A stretch of 64,000 nucleotides of DNA from Phanerochaete sordida. Lineage: Eukaryota; Basidiomycota; Agaricomycetes; Polyporales; Phanerochaetaceae. The stretch is taken from NCBI GenBank assembly GCA_019973155.2, contig BPQB01000022.1:372001-436000 (forward strand), given 5' to 3'. The position numbers were made by a program, and so were the translations under genes. Of this stretch, positions 52,252-54,313 are shown one piece after another. The notes below the pieces were generated by a model. The model saw only the letters and a list, made by a program, of their open reading frames with translations, made no database searches and was not told the DNA's origin. Position 1 is the stretch's first letter. Each line of letters opens with the position of its first letter.

Positions 52252-52857
52252 TCAGCCCCTCCCACTGCCCCACGCCTGCTGCCGGAGCGCGACGTTCTCG
52301 GAGTAAAGCTGCTCGTTCGTCTGGCGGAGGCGCGCGACCTCCGCGCGCAGCTGCGCTGCCTCCGCGCCGCTCGCGTCGTACTCCGCCTGGAGCGCGGCGA
52401 CCTGCGCGCCGAGCGACTGAAGCAGCGCGTGCATCGCCGCGTGCGCGCCCTGCGCCTCCTCGCACACGCGCGCGAGCGCGAGCAGGCCCGGGAAGAGTGT
52501 AGGTGGGCCGTTCGCTGTGCGGCGCTCAGCACAACTGTGCAGCACGCATGAACGGGAAGACGCACCTTGCGGAGGCCCGCCAAACCCGCCAGGCCAAGCC
52601 GGCGGTCCTTGCGCGCCCGCACCCGCCGCCCCGTCTGCGGCGCCGTTCGCCTCTGCCTTCGCCTTCGGTGCGGCACGCTTGCGCTTCTTGGGCACGGCGG
52701 CGGCGGGGTCGCCCGCGAGCGTCGGTGCGACAACTTTGCGGGACGTCGAGGAGAGGGCCTTGCGCGGCGCCTTGGAGCCCGTCGACTTGCGCGCGGTCTG
52801 CTTCGTGCGCGCGCCGGTGGGCGTGGGCGCGGAGGCGTCGTCTTCCCAGTCGTCCAT
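52252..52857 (-). CDS. Coiled-coil protein carrying a histone H3 N-terminal-tail mimic
   Basis: Exons 52566..52857 and 52252..52514 (51-nt GT-AG intron, ends GCACAG) give 184 residues. After an acidic 15-residue leader (MDDWEDDASAPTPTG), residues 16-35 read [20 protein letters not shown]: the first 20 residues of histone H3 with two changes (Gly13 to Ser, Gln19 to Ala). Lysines equivalent to K4, K9, K14 and K18 and Ser10 are kept, and a weaker match continues to an RK..AP near K27. Basic stretches (PKKRKRAAPKAK) look like a nuclear signal. The C-terminus is a leucine-rich coiled coil (LRAEVARLRQTNEQL, YSENVALRQQ), so it may dimerise. It is not a histone: the histone fold is absent. The real H3 gene is about 0.8 kb upstream in the same orientation. 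Confidence 0.8.
   Translation of the reverse strand: MDDWEDDASAPTPTGARTKQTARKSTGSKAPRKALSSTSRKVVAPTLAGDPAAAVPKKRKRAAPKAKAEANGAADGAAGAGAQGPPAWPGGFGGPPQGASSRSCVLHSCAERRTANGPPTLFPGLLALARVCEEAQGAHAAMHALLQSLGAQVAALQAEYDASGAEAAQLRAEVARLRQTNEQLYSENVALRQQAWGSGRG

Positions 52858-53657: not shown

Positions 53658-54313
<656 letters not shown>

Follow-up and report, generated by a model that had tools for sequence, protein, structure and literature searches.

The gene PsYK624_078730, in the 64,000-nucleotide stretch of DNA of the wood-rotting fungus Phanerochaete sordida analysed here (the window), carries a copy of the N-terminal tail of histone H3 inside a small non-histone protein. Relatives have held on to this copy while large parts of the protein around it diverged, which gives it the look of a dedicated mimic of a major control site of chromatin. 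We propose that its product is a nuclear, dimeric presenter of that tail onto which writers and readers of the H3K9 type dock, and for the docking step itself we put the probability at about one in two. In the mechanism that we favour, a disordered N-terminal half predicted by modelling would present the H3 R2-G12 sequence from within the chain, ahead of a stretch resembling a nuclear localization signal (NLS) and a zipper helix; the protein, presumably nuclear, would form parallel dimers through the zipper and so display a pair of adjacent H3-like peptides. A fungal H3K9 methyltransferase of the Suv39/Clr4/DIM-5 type would bind the peptide and then methylate it at K24, the equivalent of H3 K9, and the methylated form could be read by HP1-type chromodomains. 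The protein might act as a titrating decoy that draws this machinery off nucleosomes, or as a recruiter that bridges it to other binding partners, and we make no firm choice between the two.

The gene starts with an ATG at 52857 on the minus strand and its stop codon ends at 52252, which gives a protein of 184 aa identical in sequence to the public P. sordida record PsYK624_078730 (P0001). When the H3-like tail protein was re-derived, the coordinates, strand, length and alignment given in an earlier, sequence-only reading of the window all proved correct (Table 1). Because the 51-nt intron keeps the reading frame and its retention also leaves an open frame, of 201 aa, its splicing is a prediction; P. 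sordida gene models were published as manually curated BRAKER2 predictions (PMC8530024).

Table 1. Features of the H3-tail mimic gene and of the nearby H3 gene, in window coordinates
Feature	Position	Strand
Mimic gene PsYK624_078730, exon 1 (N-terminus, H3-like tail, basic linker)	52566..52857	-
PsYK624_078730, predicted intron, 51 nt, GT-AG	52515..52565	-
PsYK624_078730, exon 2 (coiled-coil part and stop codon)	52252..52514	-
H3-like tail, residues 16-35 = H3 1-20 with G13S, Q19A	52753..52812	-
Conserved 11-residue core = H3 R2-G12; top-conserved 11-residue window of the aligned family	52777..52809	-
NLS-like PKKRKR, residues 56-61	52675..52692	-
Single predicted helix, residues 106-180	52267..52491	-
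Leucine zipper, residues 139-174	52285..52392	-
Canonical histone H3 gene nearby, exon 1 (M + residues 1-30); comparison reference	54206..54298	-

The tail matches H3 1-20 at 18 of 20 residues, with the two substitutions that had been noticed from the letters, and retains K4, K9, K14 and K18 together with S10, R2, R8 and R17; past residue 20 a faint likeness to H3 can be followed by eye as far as roughly P30, at which exon 1 of the H3 gene stops. Chance is excluded as the origin of this likeness, because a whole-genome search with H3 returns the window-gene tail at E = 1.4e-4 and because only ~3e-7 exact copies of the 11-residue core would be expected in a proteome of this size (a rough composition estimate from our own round figures for amino-acid frequencies). 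What the protein shares with the H3 family (PF00125) is the N-terminal tail. A Pfam scan of the protein gave no family at the cut-off and no histone among the 19 families at E <= 1, PF00125 being absent from that list, and the structural model consists of a disordered half and one helix; a histone variant was rejected on these two grounds, and the sequence-only reading was right both in denying the protein a histone fold and in calling the tail internal, since it begins at residue 16 and not at a free N-terminus.

AlphaFold2, run on eight sequences (mean pLDDT 68, pTM 0.34), leaves residues 1-105 without structure and predicts one 75-residue helix over residues 106-180, with a pLDDT by ten-residue block of 88-98 across 111-180 and of 66 in 101-110. 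Leu occupies five of the six d positions between residues 139 and 174, five Leu in one heptad position being reached in 6 of 100000 shuffles, and Asn stands at the a positions 164 and 171. Under the GCN4 rule Asn at a positions favours a parallel dimer, and this is the arrangement that the zipper probably favours here. Both the leucine coil and the basic, NLS-like stretch announced earlier are present, the latter as PKKRKR, and P-K-K-[KR] clusters of the same type occur in the relatives P0003, P0004 and P0006 and in one own-genome paralog, B, and not in paralog A, P0005 or P0008. A leucine zipper with Asn at a positions is also what bZIP proteins have; the mimic differs from them in having no basic region ahead of the zipper (residues 106-138, by eye), and with no bZIP family in the Pfam list either, a bZIP factor was rejected.

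The earlier reading had made the existence of orthologs a check of its claim, and protein searches found relatives, six of them outside the three genes of P. sordida itself. A coil-only query (residues 84-184), from which the tail is absent, gave three proteins at E <= 0.001 among 242 candidates, namely the window protein P0001, P0002 and P0003, and both of the latter have the 11-residue core at the same place. A tail-masked alignment search, in which 7997 candidates were scored, gave six proteins at E <= 0.001 and added P0004, P0005 and P0006, all carrying the tail, in P0005 in diverged form (RSRPTARKTAG). All five relatives found blind to the tail (P0002-P0006) thus carry it. In the P. sordida genome one contig, C146, was indicated independently by the coil search and by the H3 search, and it holds a tandem pair of paralogs, A and B (G000:C146:34483-36258; L016:4484-6259, minus strand). 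Paralog A is the annotated protein P0007 (PsYK624_166210), and paralog B, 187 aa as modelled, was not encountered as an annotated protein. The two follow the same plan of a short N-terminus, tail, linker, predicted short intron and coil, the intron between the tail exon and the coil exon being predicted at 51 or 54 nt in A (the annotation of P0007 uses 54 nt) and at 55 nt in B. A further protein, P0008, came from a search whose query included the tail, and it resembles paralog A closely, with 'TGYI' and 'PRKVLAD' in common.

The coil family thus has nine members, a small sample: six relatives and three in the P. sordida genome, where the counts are lower bounds, a 22-aa tail query having missed both the H3 gene on contig C31 and the tail of a VWA protein on contig C30. 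Weak coil-only matches in the same genome fall on C103, C40, C46 and C47 (E 0.2-0.9). Among named species, the coil form appeared only in P. sordida in the coil-only, tail-masked and tail-inclusive protein searches, of which the last two are lossy, with about 8000 candidates scored in each and P0005 missing from the tail-inclusive one. The 42 proteins returned by the tail-inclusive search, 21 of which had their sequence letters inspected, comprise 25 with PF00125 (H3-like), seven of the coil family, four with multiple tails, one VWA-like and five others. Adjoining paralog B is an open frame of 450 codons that is rich in coiled coil and in which no H3-like tail was seen (L016:6488-7840, minus strand).

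Within this family the tail is the best-conserved part. In the set of six formed by the query and its five tail-blind relatives, R2-G12 has a mean pairwise identity of 83%, against 64% in the helix, 40% in the 18 residues that follow the core and 37% in the linker; none of the 153 other 11-residue windows reaches the tail, the best of them, in the zipper, standing at 81% and their mean at 50%. With P0007 and P0008 added, making eight sequences, the tail rises to 87% and the best other window is at 66%. The relatives retain the tail at 28-52% overall identity. In eight members, counted with paralog B and without P0008, six tail residues never vary (R2, T6, A7, R8, K9 and G12), S or T stands at position 10 and T or A at position 11; in the eight rows of alignment A4, Lys is found at K9 in all eight, at K4 and K18 in seven each and at K14 in three. 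A wider set, 30 copies of the tail drawn from 17 proteins or frames with none dropped, was picked by an expression that loosely fixes positions 7-11 and is unbiased only for positions 1-6 and 12-17: there R2 is kept in 28 copies, K4 in 25, Q5 in 22, T6 in 23, G12 in 28, P16 in 20, G13 in ten and K14 in four, while within the selecting expression position 10 is S or T in 29 and position 11 is A in six. The earlier claim of selection on the peptide is supported by the existence of relatives in which the H3-like segment is kept and is the top 11-residue window; the statement that every modifiable Lys has been preserved is true of the window protein and fails for the family, where K14 is mostly lost.

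The history of the copy looks somewhat different from what had been supposed. The neighbouring H3 gene has its ATG 1.4 kb upstream of the mimic gene, and nine of the codons for shared residues differ between the two, all of them synonymously as first reported, the shared residues being 18 and not 17. The three P. sordida mimic tails share GCG for A7 and TCG for S10, codons that are absent from all three H3 genes used for comparison, and this favours descent from a single ancestral mimic tail; the whole-genome H3 search found no H3 gene on C146, the contig with two family members. Judged from these sequence comparisons, the family is old and did not arise as a local duplicate of the H3 gene next door, since its P. 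sordida tails share codons foreign to the three H3 genes compared, no H3 gene was found on the contig of its C146 members and the tail has been kept in relatives so diverged overall. Recent copying from that H3 gene was rejected on the shared codons and the relatives, so that the denial of a recent accidental copy stands and the link to that H3 gene is weaker than had been claimed. Between the window gene and paralog A, which have otherwise diverged, 32 of the 33 tail bases (52777-52809) are identical, and so are ten of the 11 tail codons, where codon usage (2815 codons from seven frames) predicts 5.0 (P = 0.0013); gene conversion or a constraint on the DNA may lie behind this agreement. A transposon-borne H3 was rejected as well, with three coil-family copies found (a lower bound) and no mobile gene noticed by eye among the frames of C146.

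The pattern of conservation also points to the kind of partner, which would be K9-directed rather than any binder of the H3 tail, because K9 is always Lys in alignment A4 while K14 is mostly lost. For DIM-5 of Neurospora, the abstract of the published in vitro study gives R8-G12 as all that is required and its discussion lists G13 as required too; activity is lost with R8A or G12P and falls strongly with S10A or T11A, whereas K4L and A7M have no effect in vitro (PMC3248561). SUV39H1 is described as reading K4-G12, with a strict R8, R/K/S/T at +1, a small residue at +2 and G/K/Q at +3, and SUV39H2 as using T6, A7, G13 and K14 in addition (PMC8303541). On the reader side, Cbx3/HP1-gamma is reported to bind methylated 'ARKS/T' alike in H3K9, H1K26 and G9aK185 (PMC3325965). 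The substitutions seen in the family (S or T at 10, T or A at 11, G at 12, K4 mostly) fit the SUV39H1 profile best, and the conserved residues largely agree with what has been published on the residues contacted by H3K9 methyltransferases and by HP1 chromodomains. A strict profile of the DIM-5 or SUV39H2 kind is contradicted by G13 in only 10/30 copies, K14 in 4/30 and A at position 11 in 6/30, and A7 is invariant in the family although DIM-5 tolerates its change in vitro. That R2 (28/30) and K4 (25/30) are kept beyond the DIM-5 footprint suggests that another partner may matter.

The P. sordida genome has two Pre-SET matches, one frame rescoring at 2.7e-16, and Pre-SET is a motif that we take to be typical of the Suv39/DIM-5 class. 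A chromoshadow (HP1) search of the genome gave no match, and its control was silent as well; a chromodomain search gave 29 matches, and the eight loci inspected include no HP1, being six retrotransposon frames and one CHD1-like gene, both by eye, and one DNA-kinase-like fusion. In the last, a 5-hmdU DNA kinase helical domain and a chromodomain lie in one frame (G000:C19:384667-385680; L066:368-1381).

H3-like tails were also met outside the coil family. P0009 has four of them and P0019 two, P0010 of Daedalea quercina has four and P0011 of Phlebia brevispora six, one of these degenerate; both species belong, with P. sordida, to the Polyporales. None of the four proteins matches a Pfam family at E <= 0.01, and searches of the P. 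sordida genome with P0010 and P0011 found no multi-tail gene. Five others (P0043, P0018, P0025, P0026 and P0031) have an H3 tail at or near the start and then other sequence, which in P0043 includes ankyrin repeats according to precomputed domains; these could be gene-prediction fusions.

Starting from the VWA-like protein P0021, which has a single tail, eight matches of the VWA family were found in the P. sordida genome; of these, seven lie on contig C30 and one outside the window on C22, the contig of the window. The VWA cut-off is passed by the frame upstream of the H3-bearing C30 gene and by the L080 frame, the other frames being below it or unlisted, and the H3-bearing C30 frame has a weak PARP4 match in the PDB (E = 0.0039). 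Between a conserved 'FVAVD' and 'ALVRLQ' these proteins carry a variable loop, which was read in seven; the eighth match, L081, lacks such a frame. In the H3-bearing gene (C30:211359-212585; L073:1803-3173, minus strand) the loop, L074, holds about H3 13-35 and after it H3 2-13, in rearranged order; its first piece (about H3 13-35) was reached by 0 of 5000 shuffles, and a low-confidence model (mean pLDDT 56) leaves the loop disordered. The frame to the left of the window on its own contig (L078; C22:354603-355868, L078:1399-2832, plus strand) has in its loop three ribosomal P-stalk C-terminal ends (DDDMGFGCFD, DDEMGFGLFD and DDDMGFGVFD), with PF00428 at 2.8e-8 when the protein is scored as a whole, none of the individual stretches passing by itself, and PDB matches to P1/P2 only at E 0.04-0.06. 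L076 (C30:216152-216727) has eleven FG in its loop (0 of 20000 shuffles), and L077 (C30:303410-303982) and L079 (C30:281061-281633) have RS-rich loops, the FG- and RS-like labels being given by eye and composition, without a supporting Pfam family. The loop of L075 contains a weak 'ARRTAG', that of L080 nothing recognised, and a further frame, L045, has 'ARKTAG'.

It is tempting to see in these loops a sign that the mimic is one of several baits for foreign factors that attack the H3 tail and that would come from mycoviruses, from parasites or from rival genetic elements. A VWA family in the same genome whose variable loops include one with an H3 tail, one with P-stalk ends, one FG-like and two RS-like would suit such a role, and the lineage-specific duplication is consistent with conflict, but there is no known intruder factor, no immune signalling domain is listed among the scanned proteins, one loop (L080) has no recognised mimic and another (L075) has only its weak motif; moreover, the coil and VWA families have only the tail in common, and the loops could be localisation signals. 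We therefore consider a role as bait unlikely. Its extended form, a polypore repertoire of intracellular decoys copying the exposed tails of core machines with the window gene as its H3 member, is doubtful. In that form, disordered loops or tails on zipper, multi-tail and PARP4-like VWA proteins would copy H3, the ribosomal P-stalk end and FG-nucleoporin-like and RS-like repeats, and would catch the foreign or selfish factors attacking those machines.

We also think it rather unlikely that the mimic serves enzymes directed to H3K4, S10 or arginine, as their substrate or docking site, instead of the K9 pathway. The frequent retention of R2 and K4 noted above and the S or T at position 10, a position that lies within the selecting expression, are what such enzymes would lead one to expect. 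Residue 1, however, is variable and there is no free N-terminus, which many K4 readers need, and in the coil family R8, K9 and G12 are retained even where K4 has been lost, as in P0005. Retention of the tail as an import signal of the Kap123/importin-4 type is improbable: the proteins do look nuclear, and H3 1-28 works as an NLS in budding yeast, where Kap123 is described as holding K14 and K23 (PMC5677370), but K14 is Lys in just 4/30 tail copies and 3/8 family rows, and a separate PKKRKR-type signal is present. With a residue used by Kap123 mostly lost, an H3-type import signal was rejected as the main role. A functionless relic, an H3 exon 1 fragment fused to a coil, is most improbable, for although the likeness stops close to the H3 exon 1 boundary, making an origin by exon shuffling plausible, the frames are open in three P. 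sordida genes and the tail beats every other window in the six tail-blind sequences.

The reading that we prefer, docking of the H3K9 pathway, places the protein beside several known systems. It has an A-R-K-S/T motif in a disordered stretch of a non-histone protein, which is how H3K9 mimics are recognised, and like the animal H3K9-type mimics (G9a K185, GLP K205, LIG1 K126 and ATF7IP K16, and H1.4 K26) it bears an internal H3K9-like site outside H3. The animal mimics sit inside large enzymes or adaptors and are short resemblances, whereas the P. sordida mimic is a small protein with little beyond its zipper and keeps 18/20 of H3 1-20, with 11 residues in a row in most of the family. SNAG-type N-terminal H3 mimics have a free N-terminus and bind LSD1, and the window protein, with its tail starting at residue 16, is unlike them. 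At mimic sites of the animal type an H3K9 methyltransferase is reported to place the methyl mark that HP1, UHRF1 or MPP8 reads (PMC9768651, PMC3325965), with a chromodomain groove that accommodates six residues of the mimic (PMC3325965), and H3K9 mimicry through short motifs is already known (PMC9768651, PMC10611923). Among fungal proteins, Mlo3 is methylated at K167 by the H3K9 methyltransferase Clr4, in an account that describes no copy of the H3 tail (PMC9768651); methylation by an enzyme of this kind is what the two proteins would share. H3-derived sequence outside a true H3 gene also occurs in the hAT-captured H3 genes of Dothideomycetes, described as high-copy, with 94% of those in Pseudocercospora fijiensis matching only exon 3, the copies there being inactivated by RIP, and many of those in Pyrenophora possibly active (PMC6710886), whereas P. 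sordida keeps only the tail, in at least three open genes.

In the literature on fungal H3-tail mimics, VWA loops and decoys that was covered, which took in few subscription journals and preprints, this family is undescribed. Histone mimicry has so far meant short motifs in animal proteins and in pathogens. If our proposal is true, mushroom-forming fungi would possess a natural reagent for competing with the H3K9 pathway or for redirecting it. The family would offer a new route to ask how heterochromatin is limited in these organisms; and if the VWA loops share the same logic, a fungal repertoire of decoys would be indicated.
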